The notes below the pieces were generated by a model. It searched no databases and was not told the origin of the DNA. It was given only the letters and a program-made list of their open reading frames with translations. Of a stretch of 64,000 bases of DNA, positions 10,220 through 31,632 are shown piece by piece. Made by a program: the position numbers and the translations under genes. Source of the stretch: Streptococcus henryi DSM 19005 (GTDB taxonomy: Bacteria > Bacillota > Bacilli > Lactobacillales > Streptococcaceae); contig NZ_AQYA01000037.1 of the NCBI RefSeq assembly GCF_000376985.1, forward strand, positions 1 to 64,000. The letters run 5' to 3'. Position 1 is the first letter of the stretch; each line of letters starts with the position of its first letter.

Positions 10220-10240
10220 GTGATTAGTAGTAAATCGTTT

Positions 10241-11536
10241 TTAATGTTTAAAATGCTCGTTGGAAATATGAGACATAAAGGACTCTTTTACAGAAGAAAA
10301 GAGGTCATCTGAGATGAGCATTTCTTTAGGGAAATAGAAACGTCTGTCACCAAAGATTGTTCCAGTAAGAGTCTTAACGAGGGCTGATAGATTGGAGAGC
10401 TCAATGATACTGCCGTCTTTTTGAATCATATTAATTTCGGTACGTGGATTGGTTTTTTCTGGACGATAAATATCATATGGCAAATCAAAATTAACATGGA
10501 TTCCTGTATAATAGTCTGGATCAAAACCAATAGATTGAATTAATTCGATCAAACGATTTAGCTCTTTTTCTGAGTGGCTGTCAAATGTGATAGATTTAAA
10601 CATTTTGCGGTTGATAAATCTGCTAGCTAAGTCAGATAAAATATCATCCTCAGAGGACATCCAGCTTTGGAAATAGGTATTCATGACACCATCATCAAGA
10701 GCTAAATAGTCAGCAAGCTCTGCCTTATTTTCAAAAAATGGTAAAAGGTTTGGAGCAGTTTGTTTAAAGTAATCACTGTCGCTTAGATAGAGAACCTTTG
10801 CGCGTTTGAGAAGATTTTGCAGAAGGACCTCCATTGAGCGGCTAGCTGGGTGGAAGTAAACCTGCATGTACATTTGATAGCGGCTGACCAAATAGTCCTC
10901 GACTGCGTGCATACCGCTAGCGCTAAATACAATCCCGTCTTTAACAGGACGGATAACGCGTAAGATACGTGTTAGGTCAAATTGACCATAGCTTACCCCA
11001 CTGTAATAAGAATCCCTCAATAAATAGTCCATACGGTCACAGTCAATCTGACTGGAAATGAGTTGGACAACCTGTTTATTAGGATAGGTGTGGTTGATAA
11101 CACTGGCCACCTTATCAGGAAAATCAGGTGAAACTCGTCTTAAAATAGCATTGATTTCAGTCTCAGGACTTGTGATTATCTCTTGCGTATAAGCCTCATG
11201 GTCCGTATCAAATAGTCGTTCAAAAGTATGGGAATATGCGCCGTGTCCGACATCGTGAAGAAGTGCGGCAGCCATGGTTAAGAGTGATTCATCGGGATTC
11301 CAGATATCTGCGTACTTGTTGTCGAAAATATCAGTAACTCTTCGAGCGATTTCATAAACCCCTAAACAATGTGTGAAGCGGCTATGTTCAGCTCCATGGA
11401 AAGTGATAGCCGTAGTTGGGACTTGTTTAACACGACGCAGACGTTGGAATTCTTTACTATTGATGAGGTCATAGATGACTTCGTGATTTACGTTGATATA
11501 ATTGTGAACAGGGTCACGGAATACTTTTTCATTCAT
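10241..11536 (-). CDS. HD-domain dNTP triphosphohydrolase-like protein (YwfO family)
   Basis: This 431-residue HD-superfamily phosphohydrolase has metal ligands H56 (RFTHCLGVYE), H94/D95 in LLHDVGHGAYSH and a later aspartate in SQIDCDRMDYLLRD. The architecture is that of YwfO and EF1143-type dNTPases related to SAMHD1, so it probably hydrolyses dNTPs and may need an allosteric nucleotide. It is divergent from the TauE/SafE-type gene. The ATG has no Shine-Dalgarno and sits exactly six bases after an extended -10, so its mRNA is probably leaderless. Confidence 0.85.
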   Translation of the reverse strand: MNEKVFRDPVHNYINVNHEVIYDLINSKEFQRLRRVKQVPTTAITFHGAEHSRFTHCLGVYEIARRVTDIFDNKYADIWNPDESLLTMAAALLHDVGHGAYSHTFERLFDTDHEAYTQEIITSPETEINAILRRVSPDFPDKVASVINHTYPNKQVVQLISSQIDCDRMDYLLRDSYYSGVSYGQFDLTRILRVIRPVKDGIVFSASGMHAVEDYLVSRYQMYMQVYFHPASRSMEVLLQNLLKRAKVLYLSDSDYFKQTAPNLLPFFENKAELADYLALDDGVMNTYFQSWMSSEDDILSDLASRFINRKMFKSITFDSHSEKELNRLIELIQSIGFDPDYYTGIHVNFDLPYDIYRPEKTNPRTEINMIQKDGSIIELSNLSALVKTLTGTIFGDRRFYFPKEMLISDDLFSSVKESFMSHISNEHFKH

Positions 11537-13001: not shown

Positions 13002-13090
13002 ACACCAAGGGAGTAGCAGACGGATTATTCCGTGATAATGTCGTCATTACGAAATCATTGATTTCCGGCATTGTCTTAAACAGCGAGACT
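13002..13090 (+). ncRNA. yybP-ykoY manganese riboswitch
   Basis: The leader has the family landmarks: CCAAGGGAGTAGC at the 5' side, a middle hairpin region, and the 3' end ACAGCGAGACTT. It is followed directly by a terminator whose 5' arm begins inside the aptamer's last bases (GAGACTTGTTT). This layout predicts that Mn2+ binding stabilises the aptamer, prevents the terminator and turns on the downstream exporter, as established for this riboswitch class in lactococci and streptococci. Confidence 0.88.
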
Positions 13091-13116
13091 TGTTTTTAGC
13101 AAACAAGTCTCTTTTT
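13085..13116 (+). terminator. Riboswitch-controlled terminator before the P-type ATPase
   Basis: GAGACTTGTTT at 13085-13095, loop TTAGC, AAACAAGTCTC at 13101-13111, then five T residues. A perfect eleven-pair stem overlapping the aptamer 3' end. Confidence 0.92.
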
Positions 13117-17114: not shown

Positions 17115-17196
17115 ACACACACCTTCTTTCTATCATCTATAGTTTTAGTATAACGCTTACAAAAAAATAATCAAGAAAAAGCGCTAGCGAAGCGCC

Positions 17197-18054
17197 CTAA
17201 AGGTCAAATATAGACATGGAGTTGAGAAATTCTCTTTCTAGATTTTCCTTTTTATAGTTTTGAAAATGGCTGAGCTTCTTAACCAAATTGTAGCGTTTTG
17301 ATAAATTCCAAGTGCCAGTTGGATTGAGCTCAGGATGTTTCTGAACATAATCAATGGTCAAATCCCATTCTCGTACATAACCAAGCGGACGTGAATGATA
17401 GCGGATGCCATTAAAATCAACTTGTCCAAATGAACGATGGGCATGACCAAAGACAACATCATTGACACCATGCTTTTGAAAAATATCATGAAAAATTTGG
17501 CTCCCTAGAAAAGCATTGAAGGGTCTAAAAGTCTCATGAGTCATGGTGAAATGGCTGTGGGGAACAAAATGCATGCTGACGATGACATCATTATCAATTC
17601 TGGCTAAGGTCTTGTCCAGTTGCTGGGCGGTTTGAAGGGTCAACTCCTTATCAGATAAACCGCGATTAAGTCTCCTGTCAAACCAAAATCTATTTTTAAA
17701 ATTAAGATTGTCTAAATCAGATTTTTCTGGATAAAAGGAGTAGTCATACCAACCGTGGAAGGCTAGAAGTGTCTTGTTTTCGAAAGGAATGATTTGAAAA
17801 TCCTGAGCTTTTATCTCGGATTCTTTTAAATCCAACATATCATGATTTCCAAAATTATAAGTCACCTTAAAATGCTCAGCCATTTTTTCAAGAAAAGGGA
17901 GAGAAATTTCCTGATGATGATTGGATATATCACCAGCTAAATGCAAGTGAGCAGTATCTTGGCTTTTAAGTGTCTGGATGAGTGTCTCCGTTTCAAAATC
18001 TCCAAAACCATTGAGATCAATGTGCAAGTCACTCATAACTGTTAGTTTAGTCAT
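17197..18054 (-). CDS. Calcineurin-like metallophosphoesterase
   Basis: This 285-residue protein has the metallophosphoesterase blocks in order: MSDLHIDL (D9, H11), HLAGDISNH, FGNHDM and VFGHAHRSFG near the C-terminus. It needs two metal ions and hydrolyses a phosphoester; the substrate is unknown. The minus-strand ATG has no Shine-Dalgarno and lies exactly six bases after TGCTAAAAT, predicting a leaderless mRNA. It is single, with no obvious partner. Confidence 0.85.
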   Translation of the reverse strand: MTKLTVMSDLHIDLNGFGDFETETLIQTLKSQDTAHLHLAGDISNHHQEISLPFLEKMAEHFKVTYNFGNHDMLDLKESEIKAQDFQIIPFENKTLLAFHGWYDYSFYPEKSDLDNLNFKNRFWFDRRLNRGLSDKELTLQTAQQLDKTLARIDNDVIVSMHFVPHSHFTMTHETFRPFNAFLGSQIFHDIFQKHGVNDVVFGHAHRSFGQVDFNGIRYHSRPLGYVREWDLTIDYVQKHPELNPTGTWNLSKRYNLVKKLSHFQNYKKENLEREFLNSMSIFDL

Positions 18055-20131: not shown

Positions 20132-21227
20132 ATGGAAGTGGCTGAAATCCGCCAAAAAATAGTAGAAAATCAAGAGAAGTTGACTAGCTTCAGGAGGTCT
20201 CTTTGACTTAGATCGTTTGGAGGAGGAGATTGCTCTTCTCGAAAACCGAATGACTGAGCCAGATTTCTGGAATGATAACATTGCGGCCCAGAAAACGTCG
20301 CAAGAATTGAACGAACTTAAACAAAAATTTGAAACCTTCCATAACATGCAGGAGCTGTCTGAAGAGACGGAGCTTTATTTGGAAATGTTAGAGGAAGATG
20401 AATCGGTTCACGATGACTTGGTTGAGAGTCTTGAAAAACTTGATAAGATCATGACAAGTTATGAAATGACTCTGCTCTTGTCAGAACCTTATGACCACAA
20501 CAATGCGATTTTGGAAATTCACCCAGGATCGGGTGGTACTGAAGCTCAAGACTGGGCAGATATGCTTTTCCGTATGTATACACGTTACGGAAATGCCAAA
20601 GGTTTCAAAGTTGAAACCCTTGATTATCAAGCAGGTGATGAAGCAGGTATAAAATCTGTTACCCTTTCTTTTGAAGGACCAAATGCATACGGTCTTCTCA
20701 AATCAGAAATGGGTGTTCACCGCTTGGTGCGTATCTCGCCGTTTGACTCAGCTAAACGTCGTCATACCTCATTCACATCAGTTGAGGTCATGCCAGAATT
20801 GGATGATACCATTGAAGTAGATATCCGTGATGATGATATTAAAATGGACACCTTCCGTTCAGGTGGTGCCGGTGGACAGAACGTCAACAAGGTGTCAACC
20901 GGTGTGCGTTTGACCCACATTCCAACAGGAATTGTTGTTGCGTCCACTGTTGACCGTACACAGTATGGTAACCGTGACCGCGCTATGAAGATGTTGCAGG
21001 CTAAGCTCTACCAAATGGAACAAGAGAAAAAAGCAGAAGAAGTTAATGCTCTCAAAGGTGATAAGAAAGAAATCACTTGGGGAAGTCAAATTCGTTCTTA
21101 CGTCTTCACACCTTATACAATGGTAAAAGATCATCGCACTAGCTATGAAGTAGCCCAAGTTGATAAGGTCATGGATGGGGATATTGATGGCTTCATCGAT
21201 GCTTATCTCAAATGGCGTATTGACTAA
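20132..21227 (+). CDS. prfB: Peptide chain release factor 2, programmed +1 frameshift
   Basis: RF2 recognises UAA and UGA. The gene starts at ATG 20132 and reads 24 codons to CTT-TGA at 20201-20206. Ribosomes shift +1 on CTT to continue with GAC at 20205 (join 20132..20203, 20205..21227; 364 residues). The stimulatory Shine-Dalgarno-like AGGAGG is at 20192-20197, three bases before the slip codon, as in the classical autoregulatory site where scarce RF2 favours the shift. The downstream part holds the GGQ motif at about residues 247-249 and the stop-recognition SPF in [11 protein letters not shown]. Confidence 0.96.
20192..20206 (+). promoter_or_regulatory. prfB programmed frameshift site
   Basis: AGGAGG-TCT-CTT-TGA-C. 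Internal SD at 20192-20197, slip codon CTT at 20201-20203 and in-frame TGA at 20204-20206. Confidence 0.95.
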
Positions 21228-21301
21228 AATTCTAGTATTGTGACCAAAAGTCACACCTAGTAAAAAACATCAAGAAGAACTCAAGTACATAGACTGGGGT
21301 C

Positions 21302-21443
21302 TTCTTTCAAACTAAAGAGAGGATTAGAGCAGAGAGTTCGAATAGGAATAGAACTCGAGCTAAAGGCTGCTTTAAACTTTTGTGCTCAAGAAACATGGTT
21401 AGAATTATTGTGTTTCTTTCAAACTAAAGAGAGGATTAGAGCA
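21302..21443 (+). repeat. Perfect 30-bp direct repeat, two copies, upstream of ftsE
   Basis: Identical 30-base blocks at 21302-21331 and 21414-21443 both begin TTCTTTCAAACTAAAGAGAG and end in GATTAGAGCA. The spacing is 112 bp. Each copy is immediately followed by an inverted-repeat structure, suggesting a duplicated leader module. Confidence 0.9.
21334..21356 (+). repeat. Hairpin after repeat copy 1
   Basis: GAGTTC at 21334-21339 and GAACTC at 21351-21356 with an 11-base loop. An outer pairing GAGCA (21327-21331) with TGCTC about 55 bases downstream is possible. Confidence 0.5.
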
Positions 21444-21444
21444 C

Positions 21445-21530
21445 GGGCTAAATGCTTGGAATTTAGATAGGACACTGTCGAAATCAAGATTTCGAGTGTC
21501 CTCCTAAAATTCAGTCGCATTTAAACGCCC
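21445..21530 (+). other. Long structured RNA hairpin in the ftsEX leader
   Basis: An 86-base imperfect palindrome. Outer GGGC-TAAATGC at 21445-21455 pairs with GCATTTA-AAC-GCCC at 21518-21530. The middle pairs GAATTT/AAATTC-type arms. The inner AGGACACTGTCGAAATC pairs with GATTTCGAGTGTCCT across a two-base loop. No T-run follows; ftsE starts 15 bases later without a clear ribosome site. Confidence 0.65.
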
Positions 21531-21545
21531 TTTGCATCATAAATT

Positions 21546-22238
21546 ATGGCTTTAATTGAAATGAAGGATGGTACGAAGAAGTATCGTCGATCTACGACTG
21601 CCTTGAGGGATATGACAGTTTCTGTTAATCAAGGTGAGTTTGTTTATCTTGTTGGTCCTTCTGGGGCTGGTAAGTCTACTTTTATCAAATTACTCTATCG
21701 TGAAGAAAAACTCTCAAGTGGTAGCTTGCGTGTTGGTGAGTATGATTTGAATAAACTAAAGAAGCGTGAAGTTCCGCTTTTACGCCGTTCAGTAGGTGTT
21801 GTTTTCCAAGACTATAAATTGCTTCCTCGCAAAACTGTTTTTGAAAATGTAGCCTATGCCATGGAAGTTATTGGTGAAAAACGTCGTAATATTAAAAAAC
21901 GTGTACCAGAAGTGCTAGATCTTGTTGGTCTTAAACATAAAATGCGTTCATTCCCAGATCAACTATCTGGTGGTGAACAGCAACGTGTTGCAATTGCGCG
22001 TGCTATTGTCAATAGTCCGAAATTACTTATTGCGGATGAACCGACAGGAAACCTTGACCCAGAAAACTCTTGGGAAATCATGCATTTATTGGAACGTATT
22101 AACCTTCAAGGGACAACTGTCCTAATGGCGACACATAACAGTCAAATCGTTAATGTCTTGCGCCATCGCGTTATTGCCATTGAAGATGGGCGTATTGTCC
22201 GAGATGAAGAGAAAGGAGAATACGGATACGATGATTAG
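21546..22238 (+). CDS. ftsE: Cell division ABC ATPase FtsE
   Basis: This 230-residue ATPase of the FtsEX complex drives conformational change in FtsX to activate a septal peptidoglycan hydrolase (PcsB in streptococci). Walker A GPSGAGKST is at about 37-45, the signature is LSGGEQQR, Walker B is LLIADEPTGNLDP and the switch histidine is in ATHN. The N-terminus MALIEMKDGTKKYRRSTTAL fixes the ATG at 21546, but no Shine-Dalgarno is visible there. It overlaps ftsX. Upstream lies an unusual structured leader with a duplicated 30-bp element. Confidence 0.95.
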   Translation: MALIEMKDGTKKYRRSTTALRDMTVSVNQGEFVYLVGPSGAGKSTFIKLLYREEKLSSGSLRVGEYDLNKLKKREVPLLRRSVGVVFQDYKLLPRKTVFENVAYAMEVIGEKRRNIKKRVPEVLDLVGLKHKMRSFPDQLSGGEQQRVAIARAIVNSPKLLIADEPTGNLDPENSWEIMHLLERINLQGTTVLMATHNSQIVNVLRHRVIAIEDGRIVRDEEKGEYGYDD

Positions 22239-24002: not shown

Positions 24003-24003
24003 A

Positions 24004-24639
24004 TTAATGGAAGAATGGATTGAAATTTTTCTCATGACCAATAGTTGTTGACCAACCATGGCCTGGATAGACTGTATAGTGATTTGGCAGAGTAAAGAGA
24101 TTCTCGCGAATGCCAGAAATCAAATCATCAAAATTGCTTGTTGGCAGGTCTGTGCGCCCAACGCTTTCTCTAAAGAGAGCATCTCCTGTGATAACTAACT
24201 CTTCTGACGGAAAGATGAATGAAACTCCACCCCAAGAATGACCGGGAGTTTTAACTACTTTAAACTGAAAACCGTCTAAATCATAGGCTTCATCATATTG
24301 AAAAACTTCTTCGGCGGGTTTCATAATGACATCATCCATGTCATCATGACGAGATAGACCAGATAGATTCATCTCAGGTGTATATAACCAAGATGCTTCT
24401 TTATCTGATACATAGACAGGAGGGTTGTTAAAACGAGCTCGAACCAAATCCAAACTCATGATGTGATCGTAGTGTGTATGTGTCAAAAGGATAGCCACAA
24501 CAGGTTTATTCAATTCCTTTATTTTAGCTACAATTGCATCTCCCTCACTTCCAGGGTCCACGACAATAATGCCATTATCCTTGATTAACAAGTATGTGTT
24601 TTCACGTGCAACGTGATTTAATAAACGTAATATTTCCAT
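24004..24639 (-). CDS. MBL-fold metallo-hydrolase (glyoxalase II-like)
   Basis: This 211-residue protein has the metallo-beta-lactamase motif THTHYDH at residues 53-59 (H54, H56, D58, H59). Further metal ligands lie in TPGHSWGGVSF, ITGDALF and YPGHG. The size and motifs match the short GloB-like group, which hydrolyses thioesters such as S-lactoylglutathione or related acyl compounds; the precise substrate is open. The minus-strand ATG lacks a Shine-Dalgarno and lies six bases after TGATAAACT, predicting a leaderless mRNA. It is the first gene of a two-gene unit with the membrane hydrolase. Confidence 0.85.
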   Translation of the reverse strand: MEILRLLNHVARENTYLLIKDNGIIVVDPGSEGDAIVAKIKELNKPVVAILLTHTHYDHIMSLDLVRARFNNPPVYVSDKEASWLYTPEMNLSGLSRHDDMDDVIMKPAEEVFQYDEAYDLDGFQFKVVKTPGHSWGGVSFIFPSEELVITGDALFRESVGRTDLPTSNFDDLISGIRENLFTLPNHYTVYPGHGWSTTIGHEKNFNPFFH

Positions 24640-27158: not shown

Positions 27159-27164
27159 AGTGTT

Positions 27165-27719
27165 ATGGATATTTGGGTAGCCTTTGGTCGCTATGCTAAA
27201 GTTGAAACAGAATGTATGTTATTGCGCCCTTTTTCATTTGATGATAGCGATGATTTTTATGAGATAACTTCTAATCCTGATAACTTGACTTATATTTTTC
27301 CAAGTCAGGCTAGTCAGGAGGAAAGTGATTTTCTTTTAGTGCATTATTTTTTAAAGGAACCACTAGGTGTTTGGGCTATTGAAGATAAGAATAGCGGAAA
27401 GATGATTGGTTCAATTCGCTTTGAGAATATTGACTTATCTGCTAAAACGGCTGAAATTGGATATTTTTTACATCGTTCATTTTGGCAGCAGGGCTTGATG
27501 ACAGAATGTCTAAAAACAATCACTTTTATGGCATTTCAAGTTTTTGGTTTCAAACAGCTCAGCATTATTGCTCATAAGGAAAATGTGGCAAGTCAGAAAG
27601 TAGCTATGAAGTCTGGTTATAGCTTGAAGCGCCGATTTAAAGGGAGCGACCGTTATACCCGAAAAATGAGAGAATATGTGGCCTATCAGATGACAGTCAT
27701 GGAGTATCGTTATGAGTAA
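27165..27719 (+). CDS. GNAT acetyltransferase, RimJ/RimL-like
   Basis: This 184-residue GNAT resembles the protein at 9578. It has a RimJ/L-type beginning (VETECMLLRPFSFDDSDDF) and an acetyl-CoA loop region FWQQGLMTECLKTI. The likely role is protein N-terminal or small-molecule acetylation, target unknown. It overlaps the following regulator gene by eight bases, implying coupling, and the ATG is predicted to be leaderless. It heads a run continuing through the DRTGG-CBS protein, map and yihY with little or no spacing. Confidence 0.78.
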   Translation: MDIWVAFGRYAKVETECMLLRPFSFDDSDDFYEITSNPDNLTYIFPSQASQEESDFLLVHYFLKEPLGVWAIEDKNSGKMIGSIRFENIDLSAKTAEIGYFLHRSFWQQGLMTECLKTITFMAFQVFGFKQLSIIAHKENVASQKVAMKSGYSLKRRFKGSDRYTRKMREYVAYQMTVMEYRYE

Positions 27720-30973: not shown

Positions 30974-31002
30974 TTGGAAAGTGTTGATATTTTTGCTATA
31001 AT
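30974..31002 (+). promoter_or_regulatory. Promoter of queT
   Basis: TTGGAA at 30974-30979, 17-base spacer and TATAAT at 30997-31002 preceded by TGC. Expected +1 is about 31009, just before the riboswitch. Confidence 0.75.
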
Positions 31003-31019
31003 AGGAAAGTTGTTTCGAG

Positions 31020-31120
31020 CAACCCTTGGTACTTGTATTCTTGAGAGGATGAAAAACTTTTAAGGATAAATTCCCCTTTGACCAAGCATATTATAGGTGA
31101 TAACAATCACTAAAGAGGAG
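31020..31120 (+). ncRNA. preQ1-II riboswitch
   Basis: The leader contains CTTGGTACTTG at 31025-31035, and then, after an inserted arm, GACCAAGCATATTATAGG and TGATAACAATCACTAAAGAG. The pairing CTTGGT/ACCAAG, the conserved CAAGCATATTA and the capped hairpin before GAGGAG are hallmarks of preQ1-II, a class found in Streptococcaceae. The final GAGGAG is the queT ribosome site, so preQ1 binding should hide it and switch translation off. Confidence 0.88.
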
Positions 31121-31125
31121 TCTAA

Positions 31126-31632
31126 ATGAAAAATTTTACTGTACGCGACTTTGTTCAAGTTGCACTAGTTGCAGCACTCTACATTGTTTTGACAATTACA
31201 CCACCACTTAATGCAATAAGTTATGGTGCTTATCAATTTCGAGTGTCTGAAATGCTTAACTTCACCGCCTTCTACAACCGTAAGTATATCATTGGTTTAA
31301 CACTGGGCTGTATGATTTCTAATTTCTACAGTTTTGGTTTGGTGGATGTTATCGTTGGTGGCGGATCAACCTTGGTCTTCGTAACGCTAGGTGTTATCCT
31401 GTTTGACTGTTTCAAGAAAGATTATTTGTTTAATGGTTTGTTTAACAAAGCATTCTTTTATTTCTCTTTCTTCTTTGCAGCATCAATGGTAACCGTTGCT
31501 ATCGAATTGTATTTCTTTGGTTCACCATTCTGGCTCACATGGTTCACAACAGCAGTTGGCGAATTAGCTTCACTTTTAATCGGTGCCCTTATTATGGATA
31601 AGTTGGGCAAGCGTATTGATTTGACCAAATAA
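31126..31632 (+). CDS. queT: Queuosine precursor transporter QueT (ECF S component)
   Basis: This 168-residue protein with five or six membrane helices belongs to the QueT (COG4708) family of substrate-binding S components of energy-coupling factor transporters. It imports a queuosine precursor such as preQ1 and would use the shared EcfAAT module encoded elsewhere. The preQ1-II riboswitch directly in front supports the assignment. The ATG follows GAGGAG within the riboswitch expression platform. Its terminator includes a nested hairpin. Partner in the pathway: queG at 18961. Confidence 0.92.
   Translation: MKNFTVRDFVQVALVAALYIVLTITPPLNAISYGAYQFRVSEMLNFTAFYNRKYIIGLTLGCMISNFYSFGLVDVIVGGGSTLVFVTLGVILFDCFKKDYLFNGLFNKAFFYFSFFFAASMVTVAIELYFFGSPFWLTWFTTAVGELASLLIGALIMDKLGKRIDLTK

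Follow-up and report, generated by a model that had tools for sequence, protein, structure and literature searches.

The closest described parallels to the locus reported here are genes 38 and 25 of bacteriophage T4, in which a hairpin between the Shine-Dalgarno (SD) sequence and the AUG cuts their spacing (from 22 to 5 nt and from 27 to 11 nt) and in which structure-destabilising mutations reduce initiation (as summarised in PMC3014915). The operator of E. coli thrS is likewise characterised as a split ribosome binding site, at which the ribosome accommodates a long hairpin without unfolding it (in the account excerpted from PMC3936740). For the E. coli S1 mRNA, a split site formed by folding was proposed and later contradicted (in the relevant passage of PMC1805508), a precedent that counts against the reading we favour below.

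A second group of relevant systems consists of small dispersed repeats. BOX, RUP and SPRITE elements are reported to be over-represented between convergent genes and almost entirely absent from streptococci other than the pneumococcus, except for S. mitis and BOX-like elements of S. suis (PMC3049150). The Streptococcus motif ScRE of Weinberg et al. 2010 is entered in their Table 1 with 'y' for cis-regulatory, '?' for RNA and no Rfam number (PMC2864571), and Efa-1 of E. faecalis is outlined as a multicopy intergenic stem-loop family of 163 bp with two adjacent stem-loops (PMC2267715). We compared with these the ftsE leader of Streptococcus henryi DSM 19005, which lies in a 64-kb stretch of one contig, here called the window.

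Two 30-base blocks that are 100% identical and spaced 112 bp from start to start precede ftsE, and the second leads into an 86-base palindrome that opens with GGGC at 21445-21448, closes with GCCC at 21530 and leaves 15 nt to the ftsE ATG at 21546 (Table 1). Both features had been recorded in a first-pass annotation and hold exactly as described there. The same annotation placed an inverted repeat after each block, which is true of the second, where 21440-21545 folds at −38.2 kcal/mol (z −6.4; 0/200 shuffles as good), and weakly so of the first, where 21300-21413 reaches −26.9 kcal/mol (z −1.4) and 18 of 200 shuffles equal it; the structure after the first block resembles a copy of the element described below that has decayed or been shortened. 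The leader is made up of one full element copy and, probably, one decayed copy. ftsE had also been thought to lack a clear ribosome site; in fact its SD stands on the other side of the hairpin, with 4 nt between GAGAGG and the foot of the element and 7 nt between the element and the ATG. An SD on the hairpin's far side from the ATG, repeated at dozens of genes, is the feature that explains the layout, and it had been missed. The ftsE foot, GAGCA:UGC-A-UC, is a compensated variant of the family foot. Within the second 30-mer, TTTCTTTC (window 21414-21435) is able to pair with the SD AGAGAGGA in the predicted fold, and the ftsE SD might itself be masked by this pairing, which would be local to the ftsE leader. 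The closest named match to the FtsE protein is that of S. orisratti (93%).

Table 1 Features of the ftsE leader of S. henryi DSM 19005 (window coordinates).
Feature	Position	Strand	Basis
First 30-mer copy, with SD-like AGAGAGGA at 21316-21323	21302-21331	+	Sequence reading, repeat search
Probable earlier element copy, decayed or shortened; GAACTC-GAGC-TAAAG...CTTTA...GCTC, without central and apical stem	21332-21389	+	Sequence reading, weak fold; inference
Second 30-mer copy: 5' flank, SD and 5' foot of element	21414-21443	+	Sequence reading
SD AGAGAGGA, putatively serving ftsE across the hairpin	21428-21435	+	Sequence; far SD in 65/66 start-abutting copies
Complete hairpin element with its foot helix, GAGCA (21439-21443) / UGC-A-UC (21533-21538, A21536 bulged)	21439-21538	+	R1 match, covariation, spacers
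86-nt imperfect palindrome; P1 GGGC/GCCC, P2 TAAATGC/GCATTTA, P3 GAATTTAG/CTAAAATTC carrying a bulged A, and an apical stem that varies	21445-21530	+	Sequence, fold, covariation
ftsE, 230 aa	21546-22238	+	NCBIfam TIGR02673 FtsE, 294.9 bits (cut-off 264.85)

The repeated unit is the hairpin and not the 30-mer. No further 30-mer copy with up to 3 mismatches occurs in the 64-kb window (100 shuffles gave none either), and a DNA search of the 2.42-Mb S. henryi genome found no second match to the full 30-mer. Scattering of the 30-mer over unrelated loci, envisaged in the first-pass annotation, was not found in these searches, and it is the hairpin after the second 30-mer that is scattered; the 30-mer is a local duplication of the SD together with the 5' edge of the element. 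The same search revealed diverged hairpin copies directly upstream of ynzC/DUF896, glyS, ybeY, purB and uvrA. Eight aligned copies (six from S. henryi and the ftsE copies of S. thoraltensis and S. hyovaginalis) were used to build a covariance model, R1, which matches the ftsE leader, itself in the training set, at 21428-21548 with 121 bits. R1 matches at least 56 places in the S. henryi genome at E ≤ 10 and at least 44 at E ≤ 0.01, and at the latter threshold it has matches in at least 193 of 197 Streptococcus genomes. Counts at E ≤ 0.001 in 12 named genomes, all of them lower bounds, were at least 47 in S. ratti, 33 in S. orisratti, 23 in S. suis, 21 in S. vestibularis, 20 in S. hyovaginalis, 19 in S. 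thoraltensis, 14 in S. gallolyticus, 9 each in S. equinus and S. ferus, and 2 each in S. agalactiae and S. cuniculipharyngis, with none for S. phocae among the matches listed.

Outside the genus the family becomes faint. At least 7 genomes in a class-wide draw of 151 match R1, all of them Streptococcus, with none of the remaining 144 among the matches listed, and a denser order-wide draw yielded at least 53 of 246, namely 33 Streptococcus and 20 other Lactobacillales with weak scores. Ten loci read from five of these 20 genomes share the same core by eye (TCGGAAWWWAGATAAA...TTTCCTAWWWTTCWGTCG); several form tandem arrays with a period of ~121 bp, some lie upstream of normal SDs and others elsewhere, and abutment on a start codon was seen in none of the ten. 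One 3.7-Mb Lactobacillales genome holds at least 66 matches at E ≤ 0.05. A phage search gave no element match and a plasmid search a single one, to an S. agalactiae record (72% over 79% of the query).

The helices of the element covary strongly. In the MAFFT alignment of the eight copies, the cleaner test, 16 of 22 pairs show double changes. A larger alignment fitted to R1 was drawn from 98 loci, leaving out 14 near-duplicates and the other-genus loci; in its 108 distinct rows, which include one truncated duplicate of a counted copy, as do the foot counts below, 95.2% of cells pair as compared to 70.3% when shuffled, and double-change cells number 557 as compared to 138. Sliding the partners by one column drops pairing to 53-59%. 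An outer foot helix that is absent from R1, GAACn with n'GUAUC and a bulged A, is 93.5% paired, with 56 double-change cells versus 17.9 shuffled. Of 87 copies scored at its variable pair (for want of a clear motif, 21 of the 108 were skipped), 64 are Watson-Crick there versus 25.7 shuffled, and 0/20000 shuffles matched the observed count; the other 23, including 4 with G-U, comprise several sites of the second form described below. Internal loops UCGG/CAGUCG and AGAUAA/UUCCUA are conserved, as is a bulged A. G-U pairs are scarce across all helices despite the heavy covariation (46 of ~2175 paired cells), which would fit either a constraint acting on the DNA or the correction of palindromes by template switching.

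These homologues bear on several earlier suggestions. A chance palindrome next to a local 30-bp tandem duplication would agree with the local nature of the 30-mer; it is refuted by the many covarying homologues genus-wide, and its probability is negligible. The view that the leader matches no known riboswitch class is borne out, in that Rfam 15 has no family over the element in the window at gathering or permissive thresholds, nor a match in 20 element loci (14 from other Lactobacillales and 6 from streptococci). Rfam matches in the window are SSRC10 (76.9 bits, 13004-13116, + strand) and the preQ1-II riboswitch (60.5 bits, 30992-31128, + strand). Covariation across streptococcal leaders is likewise found, with the difference that homologues sit at many genes and not at ftsE alone.

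We then examined where copies lie relative to genes. The R1 model end coincides with the ATG of an ORF of at least 80 aa in 66 of 107 distinct copies, a proportion that reflects a model favouring this class (all eight training copies abut an ATG) and a sample in which most loci from other genomes are the best scorers; in S. henryi, 31 of 48 copies examined end at an ATG. An SD-like tetramer occurs within the last 18 nt before the ATG in only 2 of the 66 start-abutting copies, and 65 of the 66 have an SD upstream of the hairpin, mostly AGAAAGG. With the eight training copies and the truncated duplicate removed, the near tetramer is present in 2/58 sites, a direct SD at the foot in 23/58, and GAAAGG upstream of the modelled region in 32 of the 35 sites without a direct SD; as background, 2.2% of 72-nt windows taken from intergenic DNA contain GAAAGG. 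Of 56 genes in the window, 40 show an SD tetramer at the usual distance, under a lenient test that counted any start within the first 40 codons. Four window genes, at 10240-11536 (−), 17196-18054 (−), 24003-24639 (−) and 27164-27719 (+), have by eye a −10-like box a few bases 5' of the ATG and no SD, and may possibly give rise to leaderless mRNAs.

The genes concerned are largely housekeeping genes. NCBIfam was used to check 20 of the 31 start-abutting genes of S. henryi, and cut-offs were reached for thrS, glyS, alaS, hisS, pheS, dnaK, groEL, purF, purE, purB, carB, deoD, nusA, fpg (mutM), prmA, galE, ybeY, ftsE and a lipoyl-domain dihydrolipoyl dehydrogenase; uvrA, a 501-aa piece, takes its name from its best NCBIfam matches, all below cut-off. 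On contigs C17 and C30 the purine genes purF, purE and purB (NCBIfam) and purL and purN (by eye) each have their own copy. The remaining 17 of the 48 S. henryi copies lie away from an ATG: eight are, by eye, just 5' of a normal SD, with the tail GTATCTTAAT-AAAGGAG, and the others are beside convergent genes, beside a tRNA or within a longer repeat. In S. henryi and S. ferus, copies lie on the opposite strand to a tRNA gene, itself recognised by eye, and just beyond it. Two further ideas about the foot were dropped without formal test: its TTG/CTG as start codon, which would leave too little room after the SD and is missing from several copies, and base-pairing between GGTATC and the 16S 790 loop, since ftsE has GCATC.

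The spacing on either side of the hairpin is narrowly set. The gap from AAGG to the foot is 4 nt in all 25 direct-SD sites that fit the pattern, and that from the foot to the ATG is 6 or 7 nt in 52 of 61 start-abutting sites. Once the hairpin is discounted, the SD-ATG distance is 8-12 nt at the 24 of these 25 direct-SD sites that were measured (10 nt in 12 of them), as compared to a median linear spacing of ~128 nt at element sites; ordinary window genes with AAGGA or GAAAGG have 7-12 nt in 9 of 11 cases. In a second form of the element a small hairpin lies 5' of the foot, and an outer helix joins the far arm to the bases that directly follow the SD. Across 36 such sites at 27 genes, which include one true direct-SD site (ynzC), own partners pair better than mismatched ones (0/2000 permutations). 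Bridged spacing in this form, read from the best helices, is longer, at ~12-17 nt, and unconstrained folding of 64 leaders leaves 6-26 unpaired nt between SD and ATG.

Taken together, these data point to a dispersed element, with signs of recent multiplication in one variant, that would serve as a ribosome binding site of the bridged or 'split' kind, a reading to which we assign a probability of roughly 0.74. Among the copies examined, its commonest position is between an SD of the AGAAAGGA type and the start codon. The arms pair into one long hairpin; ..AAGG precedes its foot by 4 nt, and the ATG usually follows the foot by 6-7 nt. Looping out the hairpin would let the 30S subunit engage SD and ATG at their normal distance; in the second form, the outer helix drawn from the post-SD bases brings the ends together. 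The SD at these sites is linearly too distant, with a near SD in 2/66 and an upstream one in 65/66; a stable structure between SD and AUG is indicated by folding and covariation; and the predicted fold reduces the spacing to a presumably functional 8-12 nt at 24 direct-SD sites. That ribosomes use the bridge in Streptococcus is what we infer from analogy and from this anatomy. Weighing against it are the 17/48 S. henryi copies that do not end at an ATG, the 23/87 variable foot pairs that are not Watson-Crick, the longer second-form spacing together with the spread of the unconstrained folds, the arrayed relatives in other Lactobacillales, none seen at start codons in the loci read, and the low G-U share, which may indicate a constraint at the DNA level.

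The first-pass annotation had suggested a duplicated mobile palindromic element, and the dispersal of the hairpin at unrelated genes genus-wide agrees with mobility of a unit other than the 30-mer. A long, 174-bp variant has three further copies in S. henryi at 94-95% identity, the four sites together lying on contigs C22, C28 and C27 and at C34:133199-133399. The two of these three that were aligned with it have different flanks, with likeness continuing into neighbouring repeat sequence. By its sequence, this variant has multiplied recently in S. henryi, and perhaps spread as part of a longer repeat. It is found within a longer mosaic repeat, GGAGTGGGACAGAAC ... CACTAGGCTACTGCG, of which the genome holds further partial copies. 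Such observations would also suit a purely parasitic repeat of MITE or REP-like kind, tolerated between SD and ATG because the hairpin loops out and bringing the host no gain. Many dispersed copies at unrelated genes, tandem copies at uvrA (two, by eye) and in S. ratti, arrayed relatives in other genera, and a patchy occurrence at ftsE (2 of 40 named species, the window not counted) and at ybeY (S. henryi only; 0 of 24 other Streptococcus loci) all speak for it. Its precise placement at the ATG with a constant 4-nt 5' spacer speaks against it, as do the strongly diverged, still paired copies found at the same gene across species for deoD and purB, whose sequences suggest that some copies have been maintained for long. 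So does the lack of a Y1 transposase: TnpA_REP (PF01797) had no match in the S. henryi genome (the control search was positive in 5/14), on which ground a REP/RAYT system was rejected as the mover. This alternative does not conflict with bridging and departs from it solely on the question of benefit; we regard it as the less likely account, if one to be taken seriously. Target-site duplication at the element ends was dropped, none being seen by eye, and IS91-like ends (GTTC/CTTG) and intron-like removal were considered and dropped without formal test.

The conserved foot and loops cannot exist for bridging only, because 17/48 S. henryi copies are not at an ATG. An improbable alternative is a factor-controlled regulatory RNA, in which a protein or ligand on the two internal loops would open or close the bridge and so coordinate housekeeping genes. 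The conserved loops and bulged A exceed what bridging needs, in the second form the GAAC and GCCCTT segments have other possible partners, and many synthetase, purine and chaperone genes are among those with a copy; however, the gene set is broad, no partner is known, and the same core also turns up in other genera and in copies away from an ATG. Of the tandem regulatory RNA first suggested for this leader, a structured leader with strong covariation stands, and regulation by a ligand or switch would be hypothetical. A role as transcription attenuator or RNase III processing site, which the long stable stems might favour, is very improbable: no U-tract follows the hairpin, and cutting it would part the SD from the ATG, yet the upstream SD is conserved. 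The annotation was likewise right that this is no simple terminator, and an intrinsic terminator was rejected, as there is no U-tract 3' of the stem and the three terminator-like sites in 20900-21900 all fall outside the leader.

Leaders that do not carry the element bear on the bridged reading as well. Of 40 other species, two have the element at ftsE, and in eight a short hairpin of unrelated sequence separates the SD of ftsE from its ATG (within this short hairpin, S. suis and S. varani also have an SD-like tetramer); in the remaining 30, GAAAG or an SD-like tetramer is close to the ATG. Three further SD-hairpin-ATG layouts were seen by eye at ybeY in relatives without the element. Judged by their sequences, the unrelated ftsE hairpins would lend independent support to bridging, and with those at ybeY they suggest that bridging may be commoner than the element family.

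Compared with the systems introduced above, and as far as the accounts cited for them extend, the element resembles T4 genes 38 and 25 in that a hairpin shortens an over-long spacing, here from ~128 nt (median) to 8-12 nt at direct-SD sites; it differs from those two phage genes with their small hairpins in being a repeat family with one ~100-nt structure at dozens of housekeeping genes, genus-wide. With E. coli thrS it would share ribosome binding across a folded hairpin. In thrS, SD and AUG lie together with the hairpin upstream, under autoregulation by ThrS, whereas the hairpin of the element lies between SD and AUG. Like BOX, RUP and SPRITE of the pneumococcus, the element is a small, structured, dispersed streptococcal repeat; unlike them it is genus-wide and often abuts start codons, a distinction drawn by description and not by sequence. 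ScRE, compared by its Table 1 row only, shares the genus and the cis-regulatory label and may or may not be the same element or a relative. Efa-1, again compared by description only, is also a multicopy intergenic stem-loop family, differs in its 163 bp and two adjacent stem-loops, and may correspond to the relatives in other Lactobacillales. A literature search, which was not exhaustive and in which ScRE and Efa-1 were compared by description, found no description of the element. As far as checked on that basis, the mechanism is of a known kind, and a genus-wide dispersed family using it at core genes is new.

Models of ribosome binding sites and start sites commonly assume that SD and AUG are adjacent in sequence. 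If bridged sites do operate genus-wide at nusA, uvrA and the genes for synthetases, chaperones and purine synthesis, then a class of initiation site escapes the gene finders and expression models used for streptococci. A more speculative extension, which we consider doubtful, is that a fold of ~100 nt is extruded from the 30S subunit during initiation at dozens of core genes, and that a factor recognising the conserved internal loops could command a genus-wide translational regulon built by a repeat for which the SD-AUG gap is a safe harbour. If the bridged reading is true, streptococci would hold a natural library of ~100-nt structures with which to probe how the 30S subunit accommodates folded mRNA, and their genomes would harbour a family of repeats able to occupy start codons while leaving the genes active.
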